Origin: an uncultured Saprospiraceae bacterium | GTDB taxonomy: Bacteria; Bacteroidota; Bacteroidia; Chitinophagales; Saprospiraceae | Reading direction: 5' to 3' | NCBI GenBank assembly: GCA_937921595.1 | Contig: CAKZTD010000398.1 | Coordinates: 1-32,962, forward strand | DNA length: 32,962 nt | Part shown: piece after piece, positions 5,861-32,962 of the stretch | Layout of the letters: every line of letters begins with the position of its first letter | How positions within the stretch are numbered: position 1 is the stretch's first letter | The notes under the pieces: generated by a model | Told to the model about the DNA's origin: nothing | Database searches by the model: none | Seen by the model: only the letters and a program-made list of their open reading frames with translations | Translations under genes and position numbers: made by a program

Positions 5861-6145
5861 AGTACTCTCTTTTATTTATTTCTCAGATAAAGCAATTAAT
5901 TAAATTTTAACAAATCCTTAACACTTCTACGTGTTAACGCCCCAAATAGAATTCTATTTGAATGCGAATTTAAGAGGATTTTTAGAATATTTGTTGATCT
6001 TACACTACTATTTCGTTATTTTATTTTGCATTCTACATATTTATGCAAATAACAAAAGAAATAGCTTAATTCAACAAAAATTGAAAGAGAATGCTTTTTA
6101 CGTTAAATTTTCTTAATTTTAATCAAGATTGGTCGCTTGATAAAC

Positions 6146-6174
6146 ACATTTTTTAAGTCAAAAAATGTTTTTTC
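6146..6174 (+). terminator. Terminator-like hairpin with no known upstream gene
   Basis: ACATTTTTT (6146-6154) pairs perfectly with AAAAAATGT (6160-6168) around a 5-base loop, then runs into T6 and TTC on the plus strand. No plus-strand gene ends before it. It is either chance in AT-rich DNA or the end of a short untranslated RNA from the 5861-6145 interval. Confidence 0.35.
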
Positions 6175-6374
6175 TTCGAAATTTGTGACCTATCAAAAGT
6201 GTCCTCGTCATAAGAACGAACATTGCAAAGGAGCAATATTAACGAGATTAAAATTAAGTAAAGAAATATATTACAGTAAATAGGGTTAAAGAATTTTTAA
6301 ACTCTTTCACTGTAAAACTGTTCTAATAAAAAGGAACAAAAGAAATTGTTTTCATTTGGTTTTTTGGGGTTATA

Positions 6375-6411
6375 CAGGGTATCACGTAATTTATTTTACG
6401 CTGGTGCCCTG
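6375..6411 (+). repeat. Long imperfect inverted repeat (RNA-like hairpin)
   Basis: CAGGGTATCACGTAA (6375-6389) faces TTACGCTGGTGCCCTG (6396-6411) across a 6-base loop. All positions pair except one bulged base if two T-G wobbles are allowed. The wobbles favour a plus-strand RNA; on the minus strand they become C-A mismatches. It lies 31 bases beyond the stop of the minus-strand zinc-finger gene but has no good T run for either direction. Confidence 0.5.
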
Positions 6412-6441
6412 TTCTTTTGTGGTCATTGCTAAACCTCCTAA

Positions 6442-9634: not shown

Positions 9635-9939
9635 TTGGTTTTTATGCCAATCTGGGTTTAAAAAGGTATTAGTTTTTAATTTGCTCTAAGCCAAGGAAAA
9701 AGGCATTAGGTATTAGATTTTCGGGCTCTCCTAATGCAGAATCTCTAATACCGTTTACACTCCTATTAAGAATTAAGCACTTAGATTCCAGGGTAGATTC
9801 AAACCTGGTTTGCATTAGTTGTAAGTAGTCTTTTCTTTTAAGATTTCCTTAGTAGACAATTCCATATATTTTTTCGAACTTTAGGAAAACCAATACGTAT
9901 GTACTTGGAGTCACTCATTTTCTTTTAAAATAACATATT
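9635..9939. other. Gene-free interval between DUF2480 gene and lytic transglycosylase
   Basis: 305 bases without a credible reading frame. It contains three direct GGYATTAG words (9665, 9702, 9709) and two inverted counterparts (9731, 9745), described separately as a periodic inverted-repeat array. The remainder (9780-9939) must contain the promoter of the transglycosylase gene, but I see no exact TAnnTTTG box. Confidence 0.6.
9702..9752. repeat. 7-base-periodic self-complementary array (GGYATTA words)
   Basis: GGCATTA (9702) is followed directly by GGTATTA (9709). Their complements appear as CCTAATGC (9730-9737) and TCTAATACC (9744-9752). GCATTAGG pairs over 8 bases with the first, and GGTATTAGA over 9 bases with the second, giving overlapping, mutually exclusive stems. 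It begins 67 bases after the DUF2480 stop. Its weak T run makes terminator function uncertain. Confidence 0.55.
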
Positions 9940-19767: not shown

Positions 19768-20285
19768 GCTGTTTTTATTTTTAAATAATTTATGCGAATT
19801 GGAGATTAAAAAATGCATAACCTCTGATTCTCATAATTTACCATTTTGGTATATTTTATAATCGCAATTACTTTGCCAGACACATCAAAACTATTTGATA
19901 TGTCTGATTTCTAAAAATAAGAAAAGACTCTATCAAACATAAAGTCTTTCCTTATTTTAACCTGATTTTAATAACGTAAATAAGGCATTAGGGATTGTGT
20001 GTGGATGCCTCTTTGTAAATATGTGGGTGTGTTTGTTCAGATCATTGAGTGTAGGTAGTTAGACGGAATTATCTGCCCGTTATTTTTTTAGGATATTTGA
20101 AATATCACCTCATAAATCCTTTCAGTCTTTATTTCGATAATCTTTCAAAATCAAAATAACGTATAGATAATTATGTCCCGTCACTTATAGACTCAACAAG
20201 CCAAGCACGAATATAACAATACTTTAGCACATATTAAATATTTTATCGATAGGAAATCATGCCCTGATATAGGCAAATGATAGAA
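19768..20285. other. Gene-free interval rich in inverted repeats
   Basis: 518 bases between two minus-strand genes. It contains a 13-bp hairpin with one mismatch (19877-19889 with 19894-19906) and a 16-bp hairpin with one mismatch (19914-19929 with 19943-19958). A GGCATTAGG word lies near 19984 (also seen at 9702), and an asymmetric inverted-repeat element spans 20047-20194. No credible coding frame or tRNA. The 19914-19958 hairpin reads into a T-rich stretch on the minus strand and could terminate the DUF6427 transcript. Confidence 0.6.
20047..20194. repeat. Asymmetric inverted-repeat element, copy A
   Basis: A 148-bp element bounded by GAGT/GACTC ends. The left arm has TAGGTAGTTAGACGGAATTAT (20052-20072) and the right arm ATAATTATGTCCCGTCACT (20167-20185). 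GACGG/CCGTC, AATTATCT/AGATAATT and CGTTATTTT/AAAATAACG pair, and the right arm carries four extra bases between the first two blocks. Copy B at 27710-27806 has nearly the same two arm sequences around an unrelated, shorter interior. Confidence 0.65.
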
Positions 20286-21272
20286 TTATCTCAACCACCA
20301 AGGATGGAATTGCCAAATCAGTATACCTACAAAAAGTAGTAAGTGAAATGCTTCAGCTTTCTGAGACTTCATTTTTAAAAACTTAAAAGACAAGAAGATT
20401 CCCAATGGTACCATAAAAATCAAGAAATGATAAAACTGAATATTCGCCTGAAAAACAATAGAAATCATGGCAAAAAAGAGCGTCCAATAGAGTACAGTTA
20501 TATTTTTTTGTACCTGAATATTTTTCTTAGCATAATAACTATTAAACCCGAAAAGTACTATCAAAGCAACCAAAGCAATCATGGCTAAATTGATATAGGT
20601 TACTAAACCAGGTTTTAAACTTAAATTAAAAAAGGAGACATTATCTATAATATGTGTTTGCCAAAAAACACCTAAATGGTCATACCAAAAGAAATATACA
20701 GCGCTAAATATATACGGAACTAAGAAGCCGATAAGCAACATCAATACTTCTTTCACACGAAATGCTCTAAGCACAATGAGTCCAATAATAGCTAATAACA
20801 AAAAGATGACTTCTGAGAAATAGAATAAACTGGCGACACCTACCCAAAAACCTATATTGACAATATGCCCGGCTACATCTGTTTTTCGATAAGATTCAAA
20901 CAATTCCCAAAGTGCCAATATAAAAAAGGTATTAGCCAGCAAGGCAGGGGAAAGCGCTAAAAACTCAGGAATCATACTTACTAAAAGCGCATAAAATAAG
21001 CCTGGTAATAAACTTACTGATATCGCCAATCTAAATTTTGCACAAATAATATTGATCAATAACGATTGTATAAAAACAATAATAATCCCAGCAAGAACTG
21101 CTGCTCCACCACTCGTCCCAAAATATCCCTGAAACCAATTACTCAAAACACCTTGCCCAGAATATGCTTCCTCTGGTGCAGCAACAAAGAATGCACTACT
21201 TCTGACTAACAGAATGTATACAATTAAAAGTAAGTTGAAAGCGATCTGATTGGTTCTAAATAAACTTAACAC
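20286..21272 (-). CDS. DUF6427 family polytopic membrane protein
   Basis: A 328-residue inner-membrane protein with about nine to ten hydrophobic helices, starting LFRTNQIAFNLLLIVYILLVRSSAFF and ending GILIWQFHPWWLR. The pattern, including the NQI start and the short charged loops (ESYRKTDVAG; AFRVKEVLM), matches the uncharacterised Bacteroidota family DUF6427. Function unknown; no catalytic motif is visible. GTG start (minus strand 21272-21270): an in-frame stop lies four codons upstream and no ATG is available. It is divergent from the polyprenyl synthase gene, with a large hairpin in the shared 329-base intergenic region. Confidence 0.75.
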   Translation of the reverse strand: MLSLFRTNQIAFNLLLIVYILLVRSSAFFVAAPEEAYSGQGVLSNWFQGYFGTSGGAAVLAGIIIVFIQSLLINIICAKFRLAISVSLLPGLFYALLVSMIPEFLALSPALLANTFFILALWELFESYRKTDVAGHIVNIGFWVGVASLFYFSEVIFLLLAIIGLIVLRAFRVKEVLMLLIGFLVPYIFSAVYFFWYDHLGVFWQTHIIDNVSFFNLSLKPGLVTYINLAMIALVALIVLFGFNSYYAKKNIQVQKNITVLYWTLFFAMISIVFQANIQFYHFLIFMVPLGIFLSFKFLKMKSQKAEAFHLLLFVGILIWQFHPWWLR

Positions 21273-21444
21273 AGTATGGTTTTAATGTTGAGAAGATCAA
21301 ATTTAAAAAAATTGCTTCGGTTTGATTCATTAATCTCAAAATAACTTATCAATAACCAGCCCGTTCGCAACCTAGAGTATATATACATAAGTATTAATTG
21401 GAGATCTGTTTGTACAAAGTTTAATCTATTAAATTTTGTAGTCT

Positions 21445-21506
21445 CCGCGTTTTCTCTTTTTCTCAGCGGTTTGTCTGCTTACCGCCGAGAAGATGAGAAA
21501 ACGCGG
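21445..21506. repeat. Large GC-rich hairpin in a divergent intergenic region
   Basis: Two 26-base arms (21445-21470 and 21481-21506) around a 10-base loop. The outer 12 pairs (CCGCGTTTTCTC with its complement) are perfect; the inner 14 have three mismatches. It is much more GC-rich than its surroundings. It lies 66 bases upstream of the predicted synthase promoter, so it is outside that transcript and more likely in the DUF6427 leader or an operator. The rest of 21273-21601 shows nothing else but the promoter. Confidence 0.7.
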
Positions 21507-21571
21507 GGGTAAACCAATTGCCGAAATTTCCCACAACAATTACATTTCGCAGCTGTTTCAATATAAAGCTG

Positions 21572-21579
21572 TATCTTTG
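21572..21579 (+). promoter_or_regulatory. Predicted promoter (-7 box) of the polyprenyl synthase gene
   Basis: TATCTTTG is an exact Bacteroidota TAnnTTTG box, 22 bases before the ATG at 21602. A TTTCG at 21545-21549 is a weak -33 candidate with a slightly long spacer. The leader would be only about 17-20 bases. Confidence 0.55.
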
Positions 21580-21601
21580 AATCAAATTCAAAAAATCGAA
21601 T

Positions 21602-22576
21602 ATGGTCAAGTCCTTGGACAAAATAAAAGGGCCGATAGAACAGGAACTTATACATTTTGAAACGCATTTTCGGGAATCCATGAAAAGCCATGTTGCGCTA
21701 TTGGATACGATCATGCACTATGTAGTTAAGCGAAAAGGAAAACAGATCCGGCCCATGTTCGTTTTTTTATGTGCCAAGCTCTTTGGCGAGACTAATGAAA
21801 GTACTTACGTTGCTGCTTCAATGGTCGAATTACTCCATACTGCCACCCTGATACATGATGATGTTGTTGATGATGCAAACGAAAGAAGAGGTTTCTTTTC
21901 TGTCAATGCTTTATGGAAAAATAAAATTGCAGTTCTTGTTGGAGATTTTCTATTTTCTCAAGGCTTATTGGTTGCTCTAAAAACTAAAGATTTTCAAGCA
22001 TTAGAAATATTATCTGGTGCAGTGAAATCTATGATTGAAGGAGAATTACTTCAAAGTCAAAAAGCTCGCCGTCTCGATATTGATGAGTCCATCTATTATG
22101 AAATCATTCGTCAAAAAACGGCTTCTTTAATCGCTTCTGCTTGTAGTGCTGGTGTTGCTTCTACGACAAAGGACGAAGCGATCATTGAGCAAATGAGATT
22201 GTTCGGTGAAAAAATTGGGATCTCTTTTCAGATTAGAGATGATTTGTTTGATTTTGGATCTGATGATGTTGGCAAACCTTTGGGAATCGACATCAAAGAG
22301 AAAAAGATGACGCTTCCTTTAATCTATGCTTTGAACAATGCTAATACAAGCGACAAACGGAAGATACTTCGGATCATCAAAAAAGATCATGATAAAAAAG
22401 ATAAGGTTCAGGAAGTCATTCAATTCGTAAATCAAAGCGGTGGAATCGAGTATGCTCAAAAGGCCATGATTAAATATCGAGAAGAGGCTTTTGAAATCTT
22501 ATTGACTTTTCCAAAAAGTCCTTCGAGAGATGCACTTCAACAGTTGGTTCTGTTTGTTACGGAGCGGAAGAAATAA
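21602..22576 (+). CDS. Polyprenyl diphosphate synthase (IspB/HepT-like)
   Basis: A 324-residue all-helical trans-prenyltransferase that lengthens farnesyl- or geranylgeranyl-PP with isopentenyl-PP, most likely making the side chain of menaquinone. The first Asp-rich motif is HDDVVDDANERRG (Asp86, Asp87, Asp90). The second is QIRDDLFDF (Asp213, Asp214, Asp217), followed by DDVGKPLGIDIKEKKMTLPLI. GKQIRP (46-51) binds the allylic diphosphate. Length and motifs are complete. Chain length cannot be set from sequence by eye; small residues before the first motif (LLHTATLIHDD) suit a long product. ATG start after a good TATCTTTG box. Confidence 0.92.
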   Translation: MVKSLDKIKGPIEQELIHFETHFRESMKSHVALLDTIMHYVVKRKGKQIRPMFVFLCAKLFGETNESTYVAASMVELLHTATLIHDDVVDDANERRGFFSVNALWKNKIAVLVGDFLFSQGLLVALKTKDFQALEILSGAVKSMIEGELLQSQKARRLDIDESIYYEIIRQKTASLIASACSAGVASTTKDEAIIEQMRLFGEKIGISFQIRDDLFDFGSDDVGKPLGIDIKEKKMTLPLIYALNNANTSDKRKILRIIKKDHDKKDKVQEVIQFVNQSGGIEYAQKAMIKYREEAFEILLTFPKSPSRDALQQLVLFVTERKK

Positions 22577-22640
22577 TTCTCGACTTCGCTCGAATTGATA
22601 AAAATTGCCTGTGCTTAGTTTCAGAAAACACTACTCTGTT

Positions 22641-23306
22641 TTACACCGTAATCTCTTTTCCGGAATATTGAAACCCAAACTCCTTCCCTTCTATTTCGAC
22701 TTCCATTTTAAATGGTACGGGAACAGCTGGCAATTCAGTAGGAAACCATTTTTTCACTTTTTGATCAACAATGATTAATAAGCCTTCTTCGTCTCCCATC
22801 GCACAGAAATAATCTTGATCTCCACTGTATTGTATCAATCCTAGTTCGTCAATTATTTTGCTATGAGTCAATCCAACATCCATCACAGGCATTCCTATTT
22901 CACTTACACCAAGAATGCTTTTCTCAGAAAACTCTTCCTTCGATTCAATAGCCATATTTTTTCTAGCAATTAGCTCGGCAATATTCCCATCCGCATCATA
23001 AAAATAGACAGCAGCTGCATTCCAACTTTTAAAATCAATAAAATAAGAATCTTCGTTGGTAATAAATTCGATAGCTTTGGTTTTCAACCAATCGAAAGCT
23101 TCTTGAATTTGAAAAGAGGGGATATTAAATGCGAAATGATAATAATTGTGCTCAGTATTTTTTTCAAAAGTAATTTGAGTCACACCAGTCTGAATCGTAA
23201 ATTCATTTTCCGAAGACTTCAATAATTCAAAACCTAATTGATCGGTATAAAAAGCTTTTTGAGCTGCTAGTTTTTTACTGTAAAGGTGAATCTTTTTTAT
23301 CCTCAT
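22641..23306 (-). CDS. VOC (glyoxalase/bleomycin-resistance) superfamily protein
   Basis: A 221-residue protein with a full N-terminal VOC module: IKKIHLYSKKLAAQKAFYTDQLGFELL, then HFAFNIPS, then AVYFYDADGNIAELIA. Candidate metal ligands are His7, His56-region and the Glu of AELIA. A second, shorter module (ILGVSEIGMPVMDVGLTHSKIIDELGL, then EGLLIIVDQ) follows. The superfamily includes lyases, dioxygenases and resistance proteins, so the reaction cannot be stated. It follows the GNAT gene by 15 bases and they are very likely co-transcribed. ATG start. Confidence 0.82.
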   Translation of the reverse strand: MRIKKIHLYSKKLAAQKAFYTDQLGFELLKSSENEFTIQTGVTQITFEKNTEHNYYHFAFNIPSFQIQEAFDWLKTKAIEFITNEDSYFIDFKSWNAAAVYFYDADGNIAELIARKNMAIESKEEFSEKSILGVSEIGMPVMDVGLTHSKIIDELGLIQYSGDQDYFCAMGDEEGLLIIVDQKVKKWFPTELPAVPVPFKMEVEIEGKEFGFQYSGKEITV

Positions 23307-23321
23307 AGAATGCTTTTTATT

Positions 23322-24167
23322 TTACAATATTTTCAACATTTCAAATTGGCTTACCGTTTTCTGAAATCCATTTTTTATAAAAAAATCATGGCTAGATTGA
23401 TCCCCAGCATCCACATTGATTATTTTCAAAGGCACTGATTTTCCATCCGCAGCTTTTGCGAAAAGAGATTTTCCAATCCCTCGTTTTCGTTGACTTTCTT
23501 TTACTGCAAACTGAAAAATATTTCCATCTTTAGAATTTTCATCAAAAATAATATAGCCCAATAATTCGTCCTTTTCGAAAGCACCAATTACGCGCATACT
23601 ATCTCTCAGTATATTTATTTTCTGATTGCTATTTTGAAAGGTAGGCTCCCATGATCGACAAGTTTCTAAAACAGACCAGTCGATCTGATCAATCATTTTA
23701 AAATCAAGATCATCAGGACCATTTTCATCAGTCAGCTCACCTTTATAGCAATCCAATTTCCTAGTTTGCTCAAATCCATTTTTTTTATAGACATGAATGG
23801 CAGGATCATTTCCTTCAATTACTTCTAAAACAGTTCGATCAAAACCTTTGTTTCGAAGCATTGGAATTATATAATTATAAAGTTGAGTCGTCACACCTTT
23901 TCCACGCTGAGTCGGGACCACTCCGGTACCACCATTCCATACGATAGGTTTACCTTCACGTTTTCCAATACAGTGAAAAATAAATCCGCAGAGTTTTCCA
24001 TCAACAAAAAAACCTGGTGACAAACTTAAGTCAATATTATCTCCTTTAAATTTTCTAGCAGCAATCTCTTCAGTCCATTGGAAAGGAATGATGTAATCTG
24101 AGAAAGCTTCGTTAAAGGCTGCGGTGAGATCCGCAAGAGAAGTATTTTCGAGGGTTTTAATTTGCAT
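23322..24167 (-). CDS. Tandem-GNAT N-acetyltransferase
   Basis: A 281-residue protein with two GNAT folds. The N-terminal one has the acetyl-CoA loop VVPTQRGKGVTTQLYNYII and the typical end IHVYKKNGFEQTRKLDCY. The C-terminal one has QFAVKESQRKRGIGKSLFAKA and SHDFFIKNGFQKTVSQFEM. The substrate is unknown; tandem GNATs act on small molecules, aminoglycosides or peptides. ATG start at 24167. The start codon lies at the foot of a periodic hairpin (24166-24234), which could restrict initiation. The VOC gene follows after 15 bases. Confidence 0.87.
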   Translation of the reverse strand: MQIKTLENTSLADLTAAFNEAFSDYIIPFQWTEEIAARKFKGDNIDLSLSPGFFVDGKLCGFIFHCIGKREGKPIVWNGGTGVVPTQRGKGVTTQLYNYIIPMLRNKGFDRTVLEVIEGNDPAIHVYKKNGFEQTRKLDCYKGELTDENGPDDLDFKMIDQIDWSVLETCRSWEPTFQNSNQKINILRDSMRVIGAFEKDELLGYIIFDENSKDGNIFQFAVKESQRKRGIGKSLFAKAADGKSVPLKIINVDAGDQSSHDFFIKNGFQKTVSQFEMLKIL

Positions 24168-24241
24168 AGTATTTGTTTTTATGAATATTCGGCATTCGGC
24201 GTTTTAAGACCGAACACCGAATACCAAATACTATCTAATTA
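24166..24241 (-). repeat. 7-base-periodic self-complementary array overlapping a start codon
   Basis: Heptamers follow one another from 24186: TATTCGG, CATTCGG, then after the turn AGACCGA (24207), ACACCGA, ATACCAA and ATACTAT (to 24234). The arms pair as CGG/CCG-containing words, and an outer 10-bp stem ATAGTATTTG (24166-24175) with CAAATACTAT (24225-24234) closes the structure. It lies after the DUF937 stop and its base includes two bases of the GNAT ATG. Confidence 0.65.
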
Positions 24242-24256
24242 GTTCTTTGACTAATT

Positions 24257-24874
24257 TTATTTTCTTAGCCACTTGCCAAACATCTTCATTCCCATTCCAG
24301 CAACATCATCCATGATACTACCATCACCGTCTTGATCAAGAAACTTACCAATGAAACCCATTTCATCTTTAGCAACTTCTTGGTGTTTTTGAACAGAACC
24401 TCCAAGGAAAGAAGATAAATCTTCGATACCCATGTTTTGCTCTTTTTTAGCTTTTCCTAAAGTTCCTAAAACCATAGGAGCTAAGATTGACATTAGGTTA
24501 CCAGCTTTATCTCCTCCTAATCCACTCATCTTTGCAATCATATCGATCGCACCATTTTGCTTACCTCCAAGAACATGCTTAAGGATACCAGCTCCATTCA
24601 TTGCACGACTATTAGTAGGTTGAGCTTGTCCACCTATCATATCCATAAAATTATCTAATACACCACCATCGTGGTCATTATCCAAAGCAGAAGCTAATGC
24701 AGAAGCACCGTCATTAGAAGATGCGTTCTTCGATAATGCGCCCATTAAAGTAGAAAATATACCTGAAGCAGCTGAAGCAGTTTGCTCTCTGTCAGCACCG
24801 CCGAGTTGTTTACTTAATTGATCGACCACACCTTCGGTCAATTGGCTTTGTAATAAGTCCATTAAATTTGCCAT
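24257..24874 (-). CDS. DUF937 family protein
   Basis: A 205-residue Gly/Ala/Met-rich protein of the DUF937 (YidB-like) family, recognisable from MANLMDLLQSQLTEGVVDQL, ASAASGIFSTLMGALSKN, and LMSILAPMVLGTLGKAKKEQ. Two Asp-rich loops, DNDHDGGVLDN (65-75) and DQDGDGSIMDD (180-190), look like EF-hand or dockerin-type calcium sites, the second near the C terminus as often in this family. No signal peptide. Function unknown. The frame could start at TTG 24880, but ATG at 24874 gives the usual MANLMDLL start. Confidence 0.82.
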   Translation of the reverse strand: MANLMDLLQSQLTEGVVDQLSKQLGGADREQTASAASGIFSTLMGALSKNASSNDGASALASALDNDHDGGVLDNFMDMIGGQAQPTNSRAMNGAGILKHVLGGKQNGAIDMIAKMSGLGGDKAGNLMSILAPMVLGTLGKAKKEQNMGIEDLSSFLGGSVQKHQEVAKDEMGFIGKFLDQDGDGSIMDDVAGMGMKMFGKWLRK

Positions 24875-25239
24875 ATTCAAATTTGTTTACTGTGAAGAAA
24901 TAATTGTTCTTATAAAATCATCCTGCATTTATATTAAAAACCAGGATATCTTTTAGTTAATTTACTGTTGGACAGGGAATATACTACATTTTCTAATAAT
25001 TATTACCAAATCAACAACTGTTTATTGTGTGACGGGATTTACTTCAAAAAGTCTCACATTCTTTAAAATTCTTTTACAATAGAGTCTATTTGGGCATTAA
25101 TGCATAATTTTTTGTAATTTTCGGATAGGGAAGAATATCTGATGATATAAGCTGGTTTTTTATCATCCAAGAATTACAGCATTCTACGTTTTTTGAAGCG
25201 TTAGAATAACCAAAACTTACTAGGAGGAACAATTTTATC
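24875..25239. other. Gene-free divergent interval
   Basis: 365 AT-rich bases between the divergent DUF937 and Pycsar-effector-like genes; both promoters must lie here. A weak hairpin ATCCTG/CAGGAT (around 24920-24953) and a TACGTTTT near-match to a -7 box (near 25184) are the only signals seen. No coding frame. Confidence 0.55.
25222..25227 (+). promoter_or_regulatory. Shine-Dalgarno site AGGAGG
   Basis: A perfect AGGAGG lies 12 bases before the ATG at 25240. Such sites are rare in Bacteroidota, where translation usually does not depend on them, and no other gene in this window shows one. The spacing is longer than the optimum of 5-9 bases. Confidence 0.5.
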
Positions 25240-26496
25240 ATGTTTGAAATCGAAAAAGAGAATTTCTCTGAAAAACCGATGGCGGAAACCAATGGCCAGA
25301 TTGTAAATCGTTGCGCCGATTTTGTCTTAGAACTTTTCAATGAAAAGGCAGATTCGCGTTTAACTTTCCACAACTACCAACATACAACAGGAATCGTTGC
25401 ATTAGTTGAAAAGATCGCCCACTCCCCTATTCCTGATCACGCTTCACAAAATATTTCTAAAAGCTCAATAGAAATTGCTCAACTAGCAGCTTGGCTTCGT
25501 AATACAGGCTATTTGATTGATTATAATAATCCACAAGATCGGAGTATTCATATTGCCAAGGAATTTCTTAGTCAGAATAATTATCCAACCGCTAATTTTG
25601 AAAAAGTCATTAATTGTCTAGTTGCTTCTGCAAGTAACCGAGCAAGTACGATCGAAGAGCAATTACTTTTAGATGCCATCAATGGTTATCATTATACGTC
25701 TGATTATTTCCAACAACATCCATTACTTCGTTTGGAATGGGAACTCATCCAAAACAAAAAGATTTCGACTTTAGATTGGAATCAAATTCAGTTGCAATAC
25801 TTATTGAAAACAAAATTCTTTACACCTTATGCGAAACTGAACTTTGAACCTGTCTTAGCGAATAATATTTTTACTCAAAAAAATAAAGTTCAAAAGAATC
25901 TTCGAACGGGTGAAGTATCAATGGAAGAGGATGGAAGTCTTAGAAAATTTCAAGGCTTGGAACGAAAACTTCCGAGCGATGCAACACAAACTTTTTTTAG
26001 AACGAATTATAGAAATCATATTAACCTAAGTGCTATCGCTGACAACAAAGCGAATATCATGATTAGTGTAAATGCGATTTTGATCTCTGTATTAATTTCT
26101 CTTTTGACTTATCAAAACATTGCAGAGACAAGGCCAATGGTTTTATTACCTGTGGTTATTTTCCTTTTCACAGGATTAGTTTCTTTGATCTTTGCCGTGC
26201 TTTCGATTCGCCCAAAAGTTACTTCTCTTAACCCTGAAGGCACTCAAACGGAAATCGCTAAACGTAATATTATTTTCTTTGGAAACTTCGTCCATATGAA
26301 GCTTGAAGAATATGAATCAGCGATGGATGCTATGTTCAGAGATGGAGAATTGATCTATGGGAATATGGTTAGAGATCTATATTTTTTAGGAAAAGTACTT
26401 GACAAAAAATATCGTTACCTAACGCTTTCGTACAATACTTTTATGATTGGTTTTGTCGCAACAGTAGTTACTTTTTTAGTGGCGATTTTTATGTAG
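25240..26496 (+). CDS. HD-like domain fused to Pycsar-effector (DUF5706/PycTM) membrane domain
   Basis: 418 residues in two parts. Residues ~20-200 resemble an HD phosphohydrolase fold: FHNYQHT holds His44 and His48, and LLLDAINGY holds Asp145. At the usual HD-dyad position (AAWxHDTGY in relatives) this protein reads AAWLRNTGY, with Arg87-Asn88, so metal binding is probably lost. Residues ~250-418 are the Pycsar effector domain: FFRTNYRNHINLSAIADNKANIMISVNA, then membrane helices at about 274-290, 301-322 and 400-416. In Pycsar defence, cCMP/cUMP made by a cyclase activates PycTM to damage the membrane. No cyclase gene is near, so this chromosomal fusion may have another nucleotide-signal role. 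ATG with an unusual AGGAGG site. A periodic hairpin array follows the stop. Confidence 0.83.
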   Translation: MFEIEKENFSEKPMAETNGQIVNRCADFVLELFNEKADSRLTFHNYQHTTGIVALVEKIAHSPIPDHASQNISKSSIEIAQLAAWLRNTGYLIDYNNPQDRSIHIAKEFLSQNNYPTANFEKVINCLVASASNRASTIEEQLLLDAINGYHYTSDYFQQHPLLRLEWELIQNKKISTLDWNQIQLQYLLKTKFFTPYAKLNFEPVLANNIFTQKNKVQKNLRTGEVSMEEDGSLRKFQGLERKLPSDATQTFFRTNYRNHINLSAIADNKANIMISVNAILISVLISLLTYQNIAETRPMVLLPVVIFLFTGLVSLIFAVLSIRPKVTSLNPEGTQTEIAKRNIIFFGNFVHMKLEEYESAMDAMFRDGELIYGNMVRDLYFLGKVLDKKYRYLTLSYNTFMIGFVATVVTFLVAIFM

Positions 26497-26512
26497 GAAA
26501 AGTTATAAAAAC

Positions 26513-26589
26513 AACAAGTTAAGAAGTTAACAAAGGCTCCGATATTCTGCTTACTTCTTAACTTGTTACTTTGCTTACTTGTTTTACCT
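26513..26589. repeat. 8-base-periodic self-complementary array, likely terminator
   Basis: Left arm octamers AACAAGTT (26513) and AAGAAGTT (26521). Right arm octamers CTTACTTC (26550), TTAACTTG, TTACTTTG and CTTACTTG (26574). A perfect 15-bp stem joins 26513-26527 with 26553-26567. It starts 17 bases after the plus-strand stop at 26496 and ends at the minus-strand stop at 26589, so it probably serves as terminator for both convergent genes. Confidence 0.7.
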
Positions 26590-27614
26590 CAATCTCTCCA
26601 ATTCATAGTCTTCAAATCCCAGCTACCATCATCTCGTTCCACTAATTTTGCTTTAAGCTTTTTACGCTTTTCCTCAGAATCAAAAGGTATAAAATCAAAC
26701 TCGATCGTTTTTTCATCTACCCAAACTGGACGCATTGGCTCGTAATGATCAAGTTCTTCCTCAAAAAGAGGTTCCTGACTAAAGCCTTCGTCGGTGATTG
26801 CGAATAATTGAATGCCATTAAATTCAAAACCGCCAGCTCCACCGGCATTACTAATTAATATTTTTCTCTTATCTGGAGACAATCTCGGCATCCCAGAAAT
26901 AGGGATTGCATACCCGAATTTATCATCTAACATCAGGTAGTTACCTGACTCATAACCAATGATTCTAAAAACGAAATATCCGATTTTGTCCAAATAATAC
27001 CGATAAGCATATTCTCGATATTCTTGTTCATCAGACGTTCCTTTTTCGTTCACTAGGTTTTTAGTCTCTCCACTAAGCAATGTCACTTGGTACCCTGTCG
27101 GAGTCACCTTTATATATCGAGCATCCTTTTTCGTTTGTTCTTTTGCGACTTTAACATAGCAATCATACCAGGATTTATAATTCCCTTGCTTCGCATGAAC
27201 TGCATCACATTCATCATAAGGCATTTTTGAAAAATCTACTTTAGGAGCCTCATCCGTCACAGCCCCTCCAAAAACCCAACCTTCGTTACCTTGCTCAGAT
27301 CTTACTTTCAACCATGGCTCTTCAAACCAGCGATTTCTTAGCTTTATTCTTTCTTTCGAATCTGTTTTTTCATTTAGAAAAAGCAATGGCCCACCTTCCT
27401 CGATTTGCTCCACCACAGCTGCTTCTTTCGTTGGTTTAGCTCTCAATCTCAATTTATCTACGGTTGCATAATACCATAATTCTGCAGGCTCTATCTTCTC
27501 CTCACTTATTAAAGTATCAACTTCTATTGCCGGATTCTTTGGAGTCTCGGGGGAGTTTGTATTTTTACACGCAAAGAAAAGTGTTAAAATTAGGATCGAT
27601 TTGAGTAATTTCAT
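26589..27614 (-). CDS. Probable lipoprotein with SH3-like domain
   Basis: A 341-residue predicted lipoprotein: MKLLKSILILTLFFAC has a signal peptide ending in a lipid-accepting Cys16, followed by a Ser/Pro/Asn/Thr linker. Residues ~45-120 are a bacterial SH3-like domain (WYYATVDKLRLRAKPTKEAAVV, then WLKVRSEQGNEGWVFGGAV), often a cell-wall or ligand-binding module. The remaining ~220 residues (GNYKSWYDCYVKVAKEQ, LLSGETKNLVNEKG, MPRLSPDKRKILISN, FEFNGIQLFAITDEG) show no family I can name but look like a beta-rich sensor. Probably on the periplasmic face of a membrane. ATG start; divergent from the glucosaminidase gene. Confidence 0.75.
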   Translation of the reverse strand: MKLLKSILILTLFFACKNTNSPETPKNPAIEVDTLISEEKIEPAELWYYATVDKLRLRAKPTKEAAVVEQIEEGGPLLFLNEKTDSKERIKLRNRWFEEPWLKVRSEQGNEGWVFGGAVTDEAPKVDFSKMPYDECDAVHAKQGNYKSWYDCYVKVAKEQTKKDARYIKVTPTGYQVTLLSGETKNLVNEKGTSDEQEYREYAYRYYLDKIGYFVFRIIGYESGNYLMLDDKFGYAIPISGMPRLSPDKRKILISNAGGAGGFEFNGIQLFAITDEGFSQEPLFEEELDHYEPMRPVWVDEKTIEFDFIPFDSEEKRKKLKAKLVERDDGSWDLKTMNWRD

Positions 27615-27709
27615 CTATGTTTCAAATTAAAAATACGTTAAATATAAAAAAGTAATTTCACCATAAACGATAACTAAGTCTAAGTTTATACGATTTTGGA
27701 AATAAATTT

Positions 27710-27806
27710 GATAGTATAGGTAGTTTGACAGAATTATATTAATTTATTTTTTCTCAAGATTTCGAAATATTTTAACATAATTCTGTTCCGTCACTAAGAA
27801 CCTATC
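27710..27806. repeat. Asymmetric inverted-repeat element, copy B
   Basis: A 97-bp element with GATAG/CCTATC ends. The left arm has TAGGTAGTTTGACAGAATTAT (27717-27737; two differences from copy A in 21 bases). The right arm has ATAATTCTGTTCCGTCACT (27777-27795; two differences in 19). AGAATTAT/ATAATTCT and GAC/GTC pair, with five extra bases in the right arm between them, as in copy A. The interior is unrelated to copy A. It lies in the divergent region between the lipoprotein and glucosaminidase genes. Confidence 0.65.
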
Positions 27807-27849
27807 AAAGTACCGATAACAAACACTCGACACCATAAAAAGTAATCCT

Positions 27850-29259
27850 ATGTCAGGCAAACGCAATCTCATCATTATCCTCTTGGCAATAGTCCTACCA
27901 AGTATCCTTCCTGCTCAAACCGCTGCAAGAAATGATTATATCAATCGTTTTCGAAAAATCGCGATTAGCGAAATGGAAAGAACAGGGATCCCTGCAAGTA
28001 TAAAACTTGCTCAGGGTATCCTCGAATCCGGAGACGGTAAAAGTACCTTAGCGAGAAAGGCTAAAAATCATTTTGGTATAAAATGCCATAGCACCTGGAA
28101 TGGAAAAACTCATTATATCGAAGATGATGATTATGATGACAATGGAAAGCTCATCAAATCCTGTTTTAGAGTTTATAAAAACGCAGATGCTTCTTATATT
28201 GCACATTCTGAATTTTTAAGAGATCCTAAAAAGAAATATCGCTATGGCTTTCTATTTAGTTTACCTTCGACGGATTATAAATCTTGGGCTAGAGGATTGA
28301 AACAAGCTGGTTATGCAACTAGCCCAACCTATGCTGAAAAACTAATTCGGATTATTGAAGGTTCTGAGCTTTATCGTTTTGATGAGATGGGAATCACAGG
28401 GGTTGCTGCAGGTGAAAAAACCGAAGCAGAGATTAAGCGTTTAAATATCAAAACGGTAAATGATGTAAAAATCACCGTGGCTGAAGAAGGAGAGACGGTT
28501 GTCGATATTGCTGAGCGTACCGAAAAATCTGTCGAAAGAATTTTAAAATATAATGAAAAACTTACACGGAAAAATCAACAGATAGAAAAAGGTACTCGAG
28601 TATTTTTACAAAGAAAACGGAACAACTCCAGAGGTAAAAAGAAATGGCACTTTGTCAAAAAAGGAGAAACCATGTTTGATATCTCTCAACGATATGGAGT
28701 TAGCTTAGAGAAATTACGACATAAAAATAGAATCCCTAATCGAGCAGAACCCGCCGTTGGTGAAAAGATTAAGATTAGAGGTTGGTTTAAGGTTGGCAAA
28801 AATGAACGTCCTCAGACTCGTAAAAGATCTGATCTCTTCGAAGAGGAAGAAGAACTCAGAAACGAAGAAGAAGAAAAGATAAATGATGAAGATTTTATCG
28901 AAATAGAAATTCCGACGAGTAATTCAGACGATGAAGAATTTGACGAAGACATCGTTCCTGAGACTCCCGATTCTGAAATTTTCGATGAACCTATTTTCGA
29001 AGAAGAAACAGGAAGTGGGGAAACGGAAACACCCAATACAAATACAAACACCGGCACAAATACCAATACGAATTCTGGTAATACGAATACGAATCCTCAA
29101 AACGATCAACCAACGACAGGAGTTTATTATTCAGCAGTAAAAGGAGATACACTTTTTAGTATTTCCAGAAAGTATGGAACGACAGTTGAAGCTATAAAAA
29201 GATTAAACAACTTGACTAATAACACCATTAGTATTGGACAAAGACTTAGAATTTTTTAA
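27850..29259 (+). CDS. Exported glucosaminidase (GH73/FlgJ-type) with LysM repeats
   Basis: A 469-residue exported peptidoglycan hydrolase. The signal peptide spans ~1-22 (MSGKRNLIIILLAIVLPSILPAQ). A GH73-like glucosaminidase domain at ~30-175 has the likely catalytic Glu59 in LAQGILESGDGKSTLARKAKNHFGIK and the typical FRVYKNADASYIAHSEFL and YGFLFSLPSTDYKSWARGLKQAGYAT blocks. LysM modules lie at ~204-255 (divergent), ~266-310 and ~425-469. An acidic stretch (~328-395) and an Asn-Thr repeat linker (~396-420) separate the last LysM. It probably splits septal or side-wall peptidoglycan. ATG start; a 22-bp hairpin 10 bases after the stop marks its end. Confidence 0.9.
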   Translation: MSGKRNLIIILLAIVLPSILPAQTAARNDYINRFRKIAISEMERTGIPASIKLAQGILESGDGKSTLARKAKNHFGIKCHSTWNGKTHYIEDDDYDDNGKLIKSCFRVYKNADASYIAHSEFLRDPKKKYRYGFLFSLPSTDYKSWARGLKQAGYATSPTYAEKLIRIIEGSELYRFDEMGITGVAAGEKTEAEIKRLNIKTVNDVKITVAEEGETVVDIAERTEKSVERILKYNEKLTRKNQQIEKGTRVFLQRKRNNSRGKKKWHFVKKGETMFDISQRYGVSLEKLRHKNRIPNRAEPAVGEKIKIRGWFKVGKNERPQTRKRSDLFEEEEELRNEEEEKINDEDFIEIEIPTSNSDDEEFDEDIVPETPDSEIFDEPIFEEETGSGETETPNTNTNTGTNTNTNSGNTNTNPQNDQPTTGVYYSAVKGDTLFSISRKYGTTVEAIKRLNNLTNNTISIGQRLRIF

Positions 29260-29269
29260 AATAACCTTC

Positions 29270-29325
29270 AAGAGATGCTGTCAATTTGATTACCTTTTCA
29301 ATAAATCAAATTGATAGCACCTCTT
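29270..29325 (+). terminator. Terminator-like hairpin after the glucosaminidase gene
   Basis: A 22-base stem (29270-29291 with 29304-29325) with two non-Watson-Crick positions and a 12-base loop, ten bases after the stop, followed by AAGTTTTATG. The T run is weak, but size and position fit a terminator. Confidence 0.7.
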
Positions 29326-29367
29326 AAGTTTTATGATAAAGTTTTACAATTATAAATCACAAATCTT

Positions 29368-30096
29368 ATGAAAAAATACTTACTCCTTTGCTTTATCTTA
29401 TCCATTTTTACAAACATCTCTTTCGCACAGAGTTATGCCTTTGGTGTCAAAGGAGGCTTGACCGCTAGTTTTCAAAAATGGAATAACTACGAAAGAGACC
29501 CTCTTTTCGCTTATCATGGAATTGTATTTATTGAATCAGCTCAAGAAGAAAATAAAGTTGCTGTTTTTGCTCAGATAGGCTACCATGTAAAAGGAAGCGC
29601 ATTAAGAAATAGAAATTTTTTCAATCCCATCAATGGGCAAACTTTTCGTCCGCCTACGACAAAATTTTTATTCAACAACATATCACTTACTCTTGGTGGC
29701 AAACAAAAATATGATTGGGGAGAAAGTAACAAAATGTACTATCTTTTTGGCTTACGTGGAGACTTCACTATCAGTACCAATTTTGATCAGTATGAATCAA
29801 TAAATCGTATGTTTAATACGCTTTATTATCCTGATGATTCCTTTGTTAGAAAATGGAATTACGGCGCGACCTTAGGCGGAGGCTTCGAATTTGCTATCAC
29901 TGATTACGTTGCAGGTATTGTTGAATTTACTGTAAACCCAGATTTTTCAAGACAATATTTCCAACAGCCTATTCCTAACATACTTGATCTTCGAACTGGT
30001 CAAAACAGAACTTTAAGAGAAACAGAAATTAGAAATACTACTTTCGAAATCACTGTTGGTCTTCGATTCCTTCATGAGATTGAATATATAGATTAG
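29368..30096 (+). CDS. Outer-membrane beta-barrel protein (porin-like)
   Basis: A 242-residue exported protein: signal peptide MKKYLLLCFILSIFTNISFAQ, then alternating amphipathic strands typical of small barrels (YAFGVKGGLTASFQKW; NKVAVFAQIGYHVKGSAL; ISLTLGGKQKYDW; YYLFGLRGDFTIS; WNYGATLGGGFEFAI; AGIVEFTVNPDFSRQY), ending in EITVGLRFLHEIEYID with an aromatic-hydrophobic last strand. It resembles the general outer-membrane-beta-barrel (OMP_b-brl) group of Bacteroidota. Transport or structural role unknown. ATG start with an A-rich leader. A periodic repeat array begins ten bases after the stop. Confidence 0.78.
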   Translation: MKKYLLLCFILSIFTNISFAQSYAFGVKGGLTASFQKWNNYERDPLFAYHGIVFIESAQEENKVAVFAQIGYHVKGSALRNRNFFNPINGQTFRPPTTKFLFNNISLTLGGKQKYDWGESNKMYYLFGLRGDFTISTNFDQYESINRMFNTLYYPDDSFVRKWNYGATLGGGFEFAITDYVAGIVEFTVNPDFSRQYFQQPIPNILDLRTGQNRTLRETEIRNTTFEITVGLRFLHEIEYID

Positions 30097-30105
30097 AACA
30101 TTTAC

Positions 30106-30204
30106 CAAGTAGTTAAGTGGTCAAGAGGTCAAGGGCGGAATGTTCTTGACCTCTTGGCATTTTAACCACTTAACGACCTGATCTATTGACTACTTGACTA
30201 CTTT
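30106..30204. repeat. 8-base-periodic self-complementary array after the barrel gene
   Basis: The left arm (30106-30133) contains AAGTGGTC and AAGAGGTC octamers; the right arm (30145-30204) is a longer run of CTTGACTA-like octamers. CAAGAGGTCAAG (30122-30133) pairs perfectly with CTTGACCTCTTG (30145-30156). AGTTAAGTGGT-type pairing resumes after exactly eight extra bases (30157-30164) on the right. It starts ten bases after the stop and may terminate the upstream transcript. Confidence 0.7.
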
Positions 30205-30314
30205 CTTCCACCAAAACATTAGGTCAAAAAACAAACACACACTCACTAAACAACTGTAAATCAATAAATTAAATCAACTCAACGTATTTTTTAGTTATAA
30301 ATCGTAATAAATAG

Positions 30315-30345
30315 TTGCAAAACTATAAAAAGCGTCTTACCTTTG
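30315..30345 (+). promoter_or_regulatory. Predicted promoter of the TPR gene, near-leaderless
   Basis: TACCTTTG (30338-30345) exactly matches TAnnTTTG, with TTG at 30315-30317 about 20 bases upstream. The ATG at 30353 is seven bases after the box, so transcription would start within a few bases of the start codon. Confidence 0.65.
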
Positions 30346-30352
30346 AAATAAC

Positions 30353-31534
30353 ATGATAAGTATCCGATTTATTATCAGCTTTCTCTTTTTAATAATCAGC
30401 TCTACCTTGAAAAGTCAGGAGACCGTTATTATAAAAATGGATATCGAAGAATCCTATAAAAAAGGAGTAGAGTTGATGAATGCCAATCGATATGCTGAAG
30501 CATTCGATTATATTTTTGAATGCCAGCGGAGCGACTCCAAGAACTTAGACTATATGAATCGTCTAGGTTATTGTTACTTCCACCTAGGAAATTATCGCGA
30601 AGCTAAATGGGTTTTCGAAACACTTTTAAAAGAAGACTCTTTGAATATTTCAGCATTGGGTAACCTTGCATCTATTGCAAATGCAGAATTAAATTACACT
30701 GCCGCTAGTGATTATTTTAGTCAGCTTATTCAAATCGATTCAACCAATAGTTACTATTTTCGACAGCGTGCATTAATCGCAAAAAAGAAAAAAAATCTTA
30801 TCGCTGCAACCGCGTTTTTTAACAAGGCACATTCGCTCAATGAAAATGATATTGCAACCATCGCAGATCTTGCAGGAATGTATCTCGACATAAAAGCGCT
30901 CGATTATGCACAACAAGTCATAGACAAAGGCATGCAAAAAGATTCTTCGAATATTCGAATTCTTCAAACGAATGCTCGTGTTCAAAATGCAGTTGATGAT
31001 TATCCAGGAGTGATCCGTTCTATCAGTCGAGCAATGGAATTAAAAGACTCTAGCAATTATTTTGCAATGATGATTAGTGTCGCTTATTTAAAAACAGATC
31101 AGCCAGACGAGTGTATTTACCATCTAAACAGAGTGGTCGCCAGAGAACGAGATTCAGAATATACACATCATTACCTGGCTATGGCTTACGAAGAAAAAGA
31201 TGATTTTAAAAAAGCAGCGGAACATTATCAGATCGCAATCGAAAAAGGAATTTCAACACAAGTTCCTCGTTCGCATGAAGACTTGGCTAAGCTTTTTGAA
31301 AAAAACAACAAATATTATAAAGCTTATGAAAACTATAAAGCAGCTCACAATTACAAACCAGACAACGAGTTACTTTTCCATATCGCTCACAATGCAGATC
31401 GTTATTACAAAGATAAAACCATTGCCATGCGGTATTACAAAAAGTATTTAAAAACCAAAGACGAAAAGTATCAACAGTATTCCAAACAGAGAATTGATCA
31501 GCTGAAAGAAATTATTCATCAGATGACAAAGTAA
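30353..31534 (+). CDS. Exported tetratricopeptide-repeat protein
   Basis: 393 residues: signal peptide MISIRFIISFLFLIISSTLKSQ, then about ten TPR units from residue ~30 to the end (for example ANRYAEAFDYIFECQRSD, GYCYFHLGNYREAKWVFETLL, ANAELNYTAASDYFSQLIQID, AMAYEEKDDFKKAAEHYQIAIEKG, LFEKNNKYYKAYENYKAAH). TPR arrays bind partner proteins; exported ones often support envelope assembly or secretion in Bacteroidota, but the partner is unknown. No catalytic motif. ATG with an exact -7 box seven bases upstream. The stop overlaps the first base of a periodic repeat array that separates it from the BlaI-like gene. Confidence 0.85.
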   Translation: MISIRFIISFLFLIISSTLKSQETVIIKMDIEESYKKGVELMNANRYAEAFDYIFECQRSDSKNLDYMNRLGYCYFHLGNYREAKWVFETLLKEDSLNISALGNLASIANAELNYTAASDYFSQLIQIDSTNSYYFRQRALIAKKKKNLIAATAFFNKAHSLNENDIATIADLAGMYLDIKALDYAQQVIDKGMQKDSSNIRILQTNARVQNAVDDYPGVIRSISRAMELKDSSNYFAMMISVAYLKTDQPDECIYHLNRVVARERDSEYTHHYLAMAYEEKDDFKKAAEHYQIAIEKGISTQVPRSHEDLAKLFEKNNKYYKAYENYKAAHNYKPDNELLFHIAHNADRYYKDKTIAMRYYKKYLKTKDEKYQQYSKQRIDQLKEIIHQMTK

Positions 31535-31621
31535 ACCAAGTCAACAAAGTAACAAGAGAACAAGAGAACAATAAACTAAGCCTTTGTTAACTTACTCGCT
31601 TATTGACTTGCTAACTTGCTA
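31534..31621. repeat. 8-base-periodic self-complementary array, eleven units
   Basis: 88 bases divide exactly into eleven octamers. The left half has words such as CAACAAAG (31542), GAACAAGA (31558) and GAACAATA (31566). The right half has their approximate complements, such as CTTTGTTA (31582), GCTTATTG (31598) and two identical ACTTGCTA units (31606, 31614). It begins on the last base of the TPR stop codon and ends ten bases before the BlaI-like start, so it fills the entire intergenic space. Confidence 0.75.
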
Positions 31622-31631
31622 AATTAAATTC

Positions 31632-32021
31632 ATGCTCATGAAACGTTTAACAAAAGCAGAAGAAGACATCATGCAAATTATCTGGCAGCTTGATCGCTGT
31701 ACAGTAAGTGATGTTCGTGACTATATTCAAAAAGAAACTGGAGGAGAAAAACCACCTCATAGCACCATTTCTACGATAGTTCGCATCTTAGAAGAAAAAG
31801 GCTTTGTAGACCATAAAGCTTACGGTCGTACCTATGAGTATTTCTCAACAGTAAGCAAAGCTGATTATAGTCGTCGAACACTCAAAAAATTTGTCACTGA
31901 TTATTTTGAAGGTTCGATGAATGAATTGGTCTCTTTCCTTGTAAAAGAAGAAAAGATCGACATGGAGGAGCTCAATAAAATACTCCGTGATTCTGAATCA
32001 AAAACGAACGATCATGATTAG
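31632..32021 (+). CDS. BlaI/MecI/CopY-family repressor
   Basis: A 129-residue winged-helix repressor. LTKAEEDIMQIIWQLDRCTVSDVRDYI and STISTIVRILEEKGFVDHKAYGRTYEYF form the DNA-binding domain (1-75); the C-terminal half dimerises and contains the usual protease-sensitive region. In this family the repressor is inactivated when a BlaR1-type sensor protease is triggered. The partner gene starts eight bases before this gene ends, so the two are translationally coupled. ATG at 31632 or at 31638 (MKRLTKAEE); the second matches the family start slightly better. No beta-lactamase gene is visible; many Bacteroidota pairs of this kind control unrelated genes. Confidence 0.92.
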   Translation: MLMKRLTKAEEDIMQIIWQLDRCTVSDVRDYIQKETGGEKPPHSTISTIVRILEEKGFVDHKAYGRTYEYFSTVSKADYSRRTLKKFVTDYFEGSMNELVSFLVKEEKIDMEELNKILRDSESKTNDHD

Positions 32022-32962
32022 TTACATTACTCAAGTCACTATCTGCTGGGGGTTATTCTATGCATTATATGCCTTATGGCTAAGCAAAGAAACCTTTTTT
32101 AATACCAATCGATGGTATTTACTAAGCACCCTGATTGCTGGATTAGTCATTCCTTTAGTCGAATTTCAAACGCCATTTCTTTCAAGTCAGGGAGCAACAC
32201 TCGACCCTATCAATTATCTGGAAACCATTACCGTAACTGCTCAGGCGATTGAAGCAAATCTCGAAGAAATCGTCATCACTCCAGTTAATGAAAGTTGGAG
32301 TATGCAATTTATCCTCTTGAGTATTTATTGGTTGGGGGTATTGTTCTTTGGTAGCCGATTCCTATATGGAATGTCCCAAATTTTAAGCCTAGCTTATAAT
32401 GGAAAAATGGTAAAAAAGAACAATTATTTTCTTATAAAAACAAATAAAGTTCATCTTCCTTTTTCTTTTTTAGACTTTATGTTTTGGAGCGAAGAAGTGG
32501 AATTCAACAAAGAAGATCGAGAAAAAATATTTCGCCACGAATTTAGTCACATCAAAGAGAAACATAGTATTGATGTTTTAATCACAGAACTCCTTTGCAT
32601 CTTTTTATGGTGTAGCCCTTTTATCTTTTTATATAAAAATGCTTTAAAAAACATCCATGAGTATCTCGCAGACCATGCGGTTTTAAAAGATACTCCAACA
32701 AAAAAATATGGCCAATTACTGCTCAAGCAATCACAATCCGGATTACAGATTGCTCAGGCAAATAATTTTATTCATTCACAATTAAAAAATCGTATCATAA
32801 TGATGACTAAAACCAAATCGCAACGATACTCTTTACTGAAGTACACTGCGATATTACCCTTAGCTTTATTGCTTATATTTTCTATCTCTGCAAAAAATGC
32901 AATAGCAGGACTTACCACTGATCAATCTCCAGGCATTGCAATTGAACAAGATACCGTTCCTC
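32014..32962 (+). CDS. BlaR1-type M56 family metallopeptidase, 5' part
   Basis: The frame is open to the window edge (316 codons visible). Membrane helices near the N terminus (MISYITQVTICWGLFYALYALWL; YLLSTLIAGLVIPLVEF) and around 100-120 precede the gluzincin motif HEFSH (His175, Glu176, His179), with the third ligand in HEYLAD (Glu216) and a further membrane helix (ILPLALLLIFSIS, about 288-300). M56 proteases are sensor-transducers that cleave or trigger loss of the BlaI-type repressor encoded just upstream. The start overlaps the repressor gene by eight bases. The extracytoplasmic C-terminal part, which in many Bacteroidota carries a TonB-like or carboxypeptidase-regulatory domain, is outside the window. 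Confidence 0.9.
   Translation, partial: MISYITQVTICWGLFYALYALWLSKETFFNTNRWYLLSTLIAGLVIPLVEFQTPFLSSQGATLDPINYLETITVTAQAIEANLEEIVITPVNESWSMQFILLSIYWLGVLFFGSRFLYGMSQILSLAYNGKMVKKNNYFLIKTNKVHLPFSFLDFMFWSEEVEFNKEDREKIFRHEFSHIKEKHSIDVLITELLCIFLWCSPFIFLYKNALKNIHEYLADHAVLKDTPTKKYGQLLLKQSQSGLQIAQANNFIHSQLKNRIIMMTKTKSQRYSLLKYTAILPLALLLIFSISAKNAIAGLTTDQSPGIAIEQDTVP

Follow-up and report, generated by a model that had tools for sequence, protein, structure and literature searches.

The nearest described counterpart of the elements treated here is found in Geobacter metallireducens, whose multicopy classes 1-3 (Gmet_I, Figure S8g) consist of tandem octa- and heptanucleotides filed as putative IHF/HU sites (PMC2700814). 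As there described in text and captions, which are the basis of the likeness drawn here in place of alignments, these arrays resemble ours in having 3-5 tandem octa- or heptanucleotides, mostly in opposite-strand pairs at variable distance, and in occurring in many copies per genome while being absent from a congener; they differ in belonging to a Deltaproteobacterium and in the binding role under which they are filed (PMC2700814). Further multicopy intergenic families are reported for G. bemidjiensis in the available text of a second paper (PMC2996986). Tandem heptamers in general are abundant in prokaryotic intergenic DNA, with function unknown, and period 7 is there, as here, the commonest short intergenic period, but in the accessible parts of these papers they are direct repeats with no inverted partner, and period 8 is not singled out (PMC6344855, PMC4692102, PMC6749651); one of them refers to a 2007 study (its reference 33) on the excess of heptamers and on the idea of polymerase-footprint slippage, a hypothesis thus already in print (PMC4692102). 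Heptamers on both arms that pair into a hairpin, degenerate and variable in copy number and word class as here, are described in excerpts on the P6b stem of the Nostoc trnL intron, although this is a group I intron of one cyanobacterial gene and not a genome-wide intergenic class (PMC3488679). The TAACTGA repeats likewise are short-period, intergenic and patchy (five Bacteroidetes included), close relatives' spacers lack them, and their indels between two Cyanothece strains are mostly 7-nt steps; in the portions available, however, they comprise one word in direct repeats (with one indirect set) and lie, in the main genome, for the most part immediately ahead of start codons (PMC4679880). Tandem heptamers and, in G. 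metallireducens, paired hepta-/octamer arrays are thus already published, and the sequence-only reading that no named family fits stands in the narrower sense that, among the matches listed (titles and abstract starts of mainly open-access literature), none describes inverted arrays in Bacteroidota, and falls for the tandem heptamers (PMC6344855) and the Geobacter pairs (PMC2700814).

The locus followed up here lies in a window of 32,962 nt, the whole stretch of DNA that was analysed, from an uncultured Saprospiraceae bacterium. Between a TPR gene (30353-31534, forward strand; an ORF call whose name comes from the sequence-only reading and from inspection by eye), which ends in the TAA at 31532-31534, and a BlaI-like gene (called at 31632-32021, forward strand, with relatives' alignments suggesting a start at 31638), the forward-strand positions 31535-31622 comprise 88 nt, or 11 octamers, of AACAAG type first, followed by a turn-round and then by the complement (CTTG type), and ending with two identical units CTTGCTAA, as had been read from the sequence beforehand. 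In the best dyad, a 5' arm of AACAAG-type octamers (31537-31571) faces a 3' arm of complementary CTTG-type octamers (31584-31618) across a 12-nt loop (31572-31583), and lag-8 identity inside the arms is 38/54. The units stand head to tail, as in simple sequence repeats, and are degenerate; together they form the inverted pair of tandem units on both strands that the published captions give for the Geobacter type. Neither the dyad score of 14 nor the lag-8 count of 48/80 is reached by any of 1000 dinucleotide shuffles, and the octamer array with its complementary array is confirmed as a real pattern. Upstream of the TPR gene, a block at 30282-30317 (forward strand), kept by eye in the genome of the window (G000) and in its relatives G001-G004, would represent the promoter/operator of the TPR, blaI-like and sensor-like genes; these three are adjacent in G001-G004 and probably form one operon with the array inside it, which would make this a poor place for an efficient terminator.

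Four other arrays had been pointed out in the window. Two are built of octamers: one in a convergent gap (26500-26580, without assigned strand; arms 26500-26532 and 26548-26580) and one on the forward strand (30107-30203; arms 30107-30137 and 30174-30203), both delimited by dyad and shuffles, with scores over 26497-26588 (dyad 19, lag 41/84) and over 30097-30208 (dyad 18, lag 55/104) that none of 1000 dinucleotide shuffles reaches on either measure. The other two have period 7 and no assigned strand. An element of ATTCGG-type heptamers (24186-24230; arms 24186-24203 and 24213-24230), defined by dyad, gap comparison and shuffles, has a dyad reached by 7 and a lag count reached by none of 1000 dinucleotide shuffles of 24168-24256, and a degenerate heptamer element at 9660-9780, recognised by repeat clustering and shuffles, sits within a longer dispersed repeat whose family has common flanks. 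At the latter (the 9702 locus) the lag count is again reached by no shuffle, and the dyad is matched by 241 of 1000, so that the locus is periodic and its dyad alone not significant; the shuffle test that the sequence-only reading had named as a possible refutation thus does not reproduce the window loci, this one dyad excepted. The hairpin at 24168 uses the same heptamer words as the family of the 9702 locus, yet falls outside that cluster.

From the genome of the window (8.04 Mb, 465 contigs), we took a sample of 678 kb, called its genes with our own hexamer ORF scorer and looked at 340 gaps of 30-400 nt; gaps outside these lengths are excluded from most counts given here. A dyad score of at least 11 was found in 182 of the 340, and the arms of these dyads were periodic (p < 0.005, positions being treated as independent) at lag 8 in 17 and at lag 7 in 10, where about 0.9 would be expected per lag; lag 12 gave 3, lags 6 and 14 gave 2 each, and the remaining lags in the range 5 to 15 gave none. 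Several word classes coexist in the genome, among others the CAAGTTAA-type octamers of the reported array (4 gaps clustered by BLAST, no common interior or flank by eye), GAATGAGY octamers (a cluster of 15 gaps with conserved interior) and ATTAGG/ATTCGG heptamers (11 gaps that cluster together and whose flanks are conserved). An exact pattern of three AACAAGWN-type units proved too strict and had no match in the genome, and CAAGT at period 8 matched 5 times, at 4 places, in G000 and in none of 23 relatives; the reversed-pattern control matched once each in G009 and G025 and 12 times in G006, where the control is therefore not clean. A word of the CAAGT class at period 9 occurs once each in G012, G029 and G031 and not in G000. 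In samples of the congeneric G002 and G004, lag 8 is weak or absent (z 2.2 and -0.1; lag 7 in G002, z 3.2), so that even members of one genus differ in how far they have the octamer class. The control matches in G006 suggest a separate TGAAC-type octamer word class in that genome.

The window's gaps were compared with those of relatives, absence being judged by eye and by length. The genes that flank the reported array are only 0-53 nt apart in four relatives, and the array is absent from all of these orthologous gaps (0-3 nt in G001, 1 in G003, 33 in G004 and 53 in G002); the array at 26497 is absent from the orthologous gap of G002 (32 nt), and the one at 30097 is absent in G001-G004, with ordinary hairpins in its place in G003 and G004. 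The converse also occurs, G001 having an octamer hairpin at the site of an ordinary hairpin in G000, and in G002, too, there is a heptamer element in the gap that corresponds to that of the 24168 element. Judged from these comparisons, the octamer copies of the window look recent, and their lack in orthologous spacers, which the sequence-only reading had named as an outcome counting against the class, speaks against a conserved function at these places within the genus. In the G002 gap orthologous to 24168-24256 (G002:C24), inverted ends (ATGAGTCATCCCAAATTTT-like and AAAATCCGGGATGATTCAT-like) enclose the heptamer element, which gives it the look of an insert within a MITE-like element.

Beyond the genus, we collected 80 named loci via the asparaginyl-tRNA synthetase of the window, the nearest being that of a Saprospiraceae MAG (83% identity). 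Of 91 dyads from flavobacteria, 8 had arms periodic at lag 7 and 0 at lag 8; the corresponding figures were 11 and 3 of 74 from Cytophagales-type loci, 1 and 1 of 21 from Saprospiraceae-type loci, 1 and 1 of 38 from other Bacteroidota, 1 and 0 of 71 from Firmicutes and 1 and 0 of 28 from Gammaproteobacteria, with at most 2 in each group at lags other than 7, 8 and 14; the most extreme named locus is that of Sandaracinomonas limnophila. Three 400-kb samples of Flavobacterium genomes gave 5 and 3 of 116, 6 and 2 of 115, and 13 and 2 of 135 dyads, other lags again not exceeding 2 (lag 14 excepted). When strong tandem segments were counted regardless of dyad in 1395 Bacteroidota gaps, lag 7 accounted for 68 and lag 8 for 22, their multiples 14 and 16 for 41 and 12, and each other lag from 4 to 20 for at most 9; about half of the period-7 and period-8 segments (30/68 and 11/22) fall inside the arms of the best dyad of their gap. 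The conjecture of a genome-wide class with different words and a common period, dyad and position after the stop codon was accordingly sound and even too narrow, as the class extends from G000 to Flavobacterium and Cytophagales. A single word dictionary per species can be ruled out, G442, G477 and G483 each having several word classes.

The gap between asnS and rpoN was readable in 23 of 34 Flavobacterium loci (7 lack the asnS end and 4 a recognised rpoN start), and the arms of its best dyad are periodic (p < 0.02) in 21 of the 23, at lag 7 in 13 and at lag 8 in 8, L174 and L209 being the exceptions. Between some species the words are wholly different (GTTTAAG, GTTATGA, GTTAGAA, GTTAATCG, CTAAGTTG, GGTACTAA). 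Such occupancy suggests selection or a hotspot at this site, where a hairpin may be useful. Among 171 orthologous gap pairs from the three Flavobacterium samples, both members have an array in 10, one member in 17 and neither in 144, which is an enrichment (odds ratio 20, p 6e-7). Only 6 distinct gaps underlie the 10 pairs, and asnS-rpoN, as the sample centre and the reason for the choice of region, contributes 3. Half of these 10 pairs have at most 10% of their 6-mers in common (3 distinct gaps, with asnS-rpoN again contributing 3 of the 5 pairs), and three combine period 8 on one side with period 7 on the other. Not counted are 151 pairs in which one member is shorter than 40 nt, 3 of which have an array on the other side, and pairs longer than 400 nt. 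A gap can thus keep its kind of element while the words are replaced, with few independent cases, and orthologous spacers, which lack the octamer arrays in the genus of the window, hold arrays in Flavobacterium well above expectation. Five close Flavobacterium gaps (L171, L203, L207, L208 and L165) are all 83 nt long, show no change in copy number and differ by point changes, mostly uncompensated.

The words of the two arms are related slot by slot. Across 92 elements that contain two or more whole units, the match is 0.822 between facing units, 0.686 between non-facing ones and 0.702 between units of the same arm. In 73 elements, a shuffled order of units brings the mean dyad score down from 19.4 to 16.0; the real order beats all 40 shuffles in 11 of the 73 and is matched by at least 20 of the 40 in 15. 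Since the elements were chosen by dyad score, this signal is inflated; the arms have common words and match slot by slot to a moderate degree, and to that degree the in-register likeness of the arms pointed out in the sequence-only reading is upheld.

At about even chances, in our estimate, the arrays are inverted minisatellites, tolerated at gene ends, whose renewal comes from slippage in 7-8-nt steps together with copying by fold-back. A short hairpin-forming sequence directly after a stop codon would be the start; replication slippage would then duplicate units within an arm in steps of 7 or 8 nt, and in a single-stranded phase the arms would fold back on each other, which would let the polymerase switch template and copy one arm in register onto the other. 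In this way the element would renew itself, its words drifting and being replaced while period, dyad and place stay, and it would be tolerated in promoter-free spacers, mainly right after stops, with no function required for its existence. Slippage with fold-back copying would be the engine and no function essential; the period of 7 or 8, the inverted arms, the slot-wise match, the turnover of words, the missing RNA-level signs and the exclusion from promoter gaps are mostly covered by it. Against it speak the five close Flavobacterium gaps, in which copy number does not change, and the only moderate, inflated slot-wise signal.

A rival account, on which selection keeps the arrays as hairpins at RNA 3' ends (mRNA terminators or 3'-end protectors) and slippage is only the source of their sequence, we regard as possible yet rather unlikely. 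Position speaks for it. Among the pooled Bacteroidota gaps (60-400 nt), 75 of the 909 that are codirectional or convergent hold a periodic dyad, against 5 of 263 divergent ones (p 1.3e-4), a bias that other dyads with a score of at least 14 do not have (p 0.26). In codirectional gaps, the periodic dyads begin a median of 6 nt past the stop (others 20), 87% of them within 30 nt (others 62%). The recurrence in orthologous gaps and the high occupancy between asnS and rpoN also fit, as do three pairs altered on both sides in seven aligned Flavobacterium gaps, a weak covariation signal whose score 22 of 500 shuffles attain, and a heptamer family with an AGAGC loop followed by T-runs in several copies. 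At the RNA level itself, however, the signs are missing. Stem mismatches in the sense RNA show no excess of G.U over A.C in the arrays (82 vs 78), unlike those of other dyads (240 vs 179, p 0.003); at least 5 T in the 8 nt after the stem are found in 11% of 61 periodic stems vs 17% of 186 others; a terminator scan of 20000-32962 returned 6 sites, vs 8.3 in shuffles, and none at the arrays of the window; and the reported array, within its probable operon, folds with only a mild advantage (31530-31631, z -1.82, 10 of 200 shuffles equally good). The terminator role that had been suggested is thus not supported as a general account. A guard against read-through by stop codons in all frames, conceivable because neither 7 nor 8 is divisible by 3, was rejected as not specific, since the excess of stops is larger in the 3' arms (512 vs 370 expected) than in the 5' arms (580 vs 530).

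It is improbable that the arrays are instead parts of self-copying, MITE- or REP-like dispersed repeats. The GAATGAG cluster with its conserved interior and the ATTAGG cluster with its conserved flanks have this appearance, GAATGAG at period 8 has 22 matches in G000, 7 in G007 of another genus and none in the other 22 genomes, four of the genus of G000 included, and the arrays of G000 are missing from orthologous gaps. Against this, the octamers of the reported array lack a common interior or flank, as noted above, and different words occupy one and the same Flavobacterium gap, which transposition does not predict. Dispersed repeats of other kinds were encountered alongside the arrays. A family of 12 clustered gaps (L001 16619-16752, L002 16164-16400, L012 9077, L016 18568, L075 446, L084 3548) has constant ends (GGGATAGAT ... 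ATAG) round a short hairpin in which the stem letters vary and pairing is kept. Another, of 7 clustered gaps (window 27615-27849 and 19819-20285, L016 1365 and 3504, L078 19147, L081 7158), has a MITE-like shape in four of its copies (window 19819 and 27615, L016 1365 and 3504), with inverted ends (GACGGAATTAT-like ... ATAATT..CCGTC-like), and a longer repeat, whose ends are likewise inverted (GAACCTGTCCAAA-like ... TTTGGACAGGTTC-like), occurs at L077 915, L007 15915, L088 14235 and L009 10293.

The arrays are also polar. In 96 elements (98 before removal of two duplicate gaps), the 5' arm has more G than C in 77 and less in 18; in other dyads with a score of at least 13 it is G-richer in 212 and poorer in 242 of 486 (asnS loci L205, L213 and L217 omitted from this set, as they lie in the three samples). 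AGTT occurs in the 5' arms of 57 of the 96 (33.5 expected) and its complement in 12, and CAAGTT in 19 (0.8 expected) and its complement in 2. The frequency of CAAGTT, and the proposal of such sites in the available text on the paired arrays of G. metallireducens (PMC2700814), speak for the idea that the arrays are sites for a nucleoid or global regulator of IHF/HU type reading the 7-8-nt units; the variation of words between loci and species, and the location of the arrays after stops and not in divergent gaps, speak against it, and we hold it to be improbable. Least of all, a chance pattern in AT-rich spacers, for which the unremarkable dyad of the 9702 locus could be cited, has negligible probability and is refuted by the controls, the lag count being reached by no shuffle at any of the five loci and lags 7 and 8 exceeding other lags in independent genomes.

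Two observations are left unexplained by slippage and fold-back copying, namely the polarity (G first, with AAGTT bias) and the high occupancy of the gap between asnS and rpoN. A broader and decidedly doubtful proposal is that the bacterial intergenic excess of hepta- and octamers is largely one self-renewing class of inverted arrays at gene 3' ends. On this view, a 7-8-nt step at the level of the polymerase and fold-back copying would preserve site, period and dyad even as all words are exchanged, and the G-first, AAGTT-biased polarity across word classes would point to one specific enzyme or recognition step. The arrays have a bearing on why bacteria have so many 7-letter repeats, an excess without an explanation so far for which the 2007 study, reportedly by Mrazek et al., is cited. 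That about half of the period-7/8 segments lie in dyad arms, that these sit after stops and that they can survive full replacement of their words make a mutational or functional mechanism testable, and the arrays offer a natural system for fold-back template switching.

An Rfam scan at gathering score gave no match in the window, and one match, to SRP RNA (L016), in 116,731 bases from 6 sources. The long gap between a radA-like and a DksA/TraR-like gene (window 5861-6441), likewise without a match in the window scan, has blocks conserved in L091 and L092, ends in a hairpin and a T-run, and is possibly a small RNA gene.
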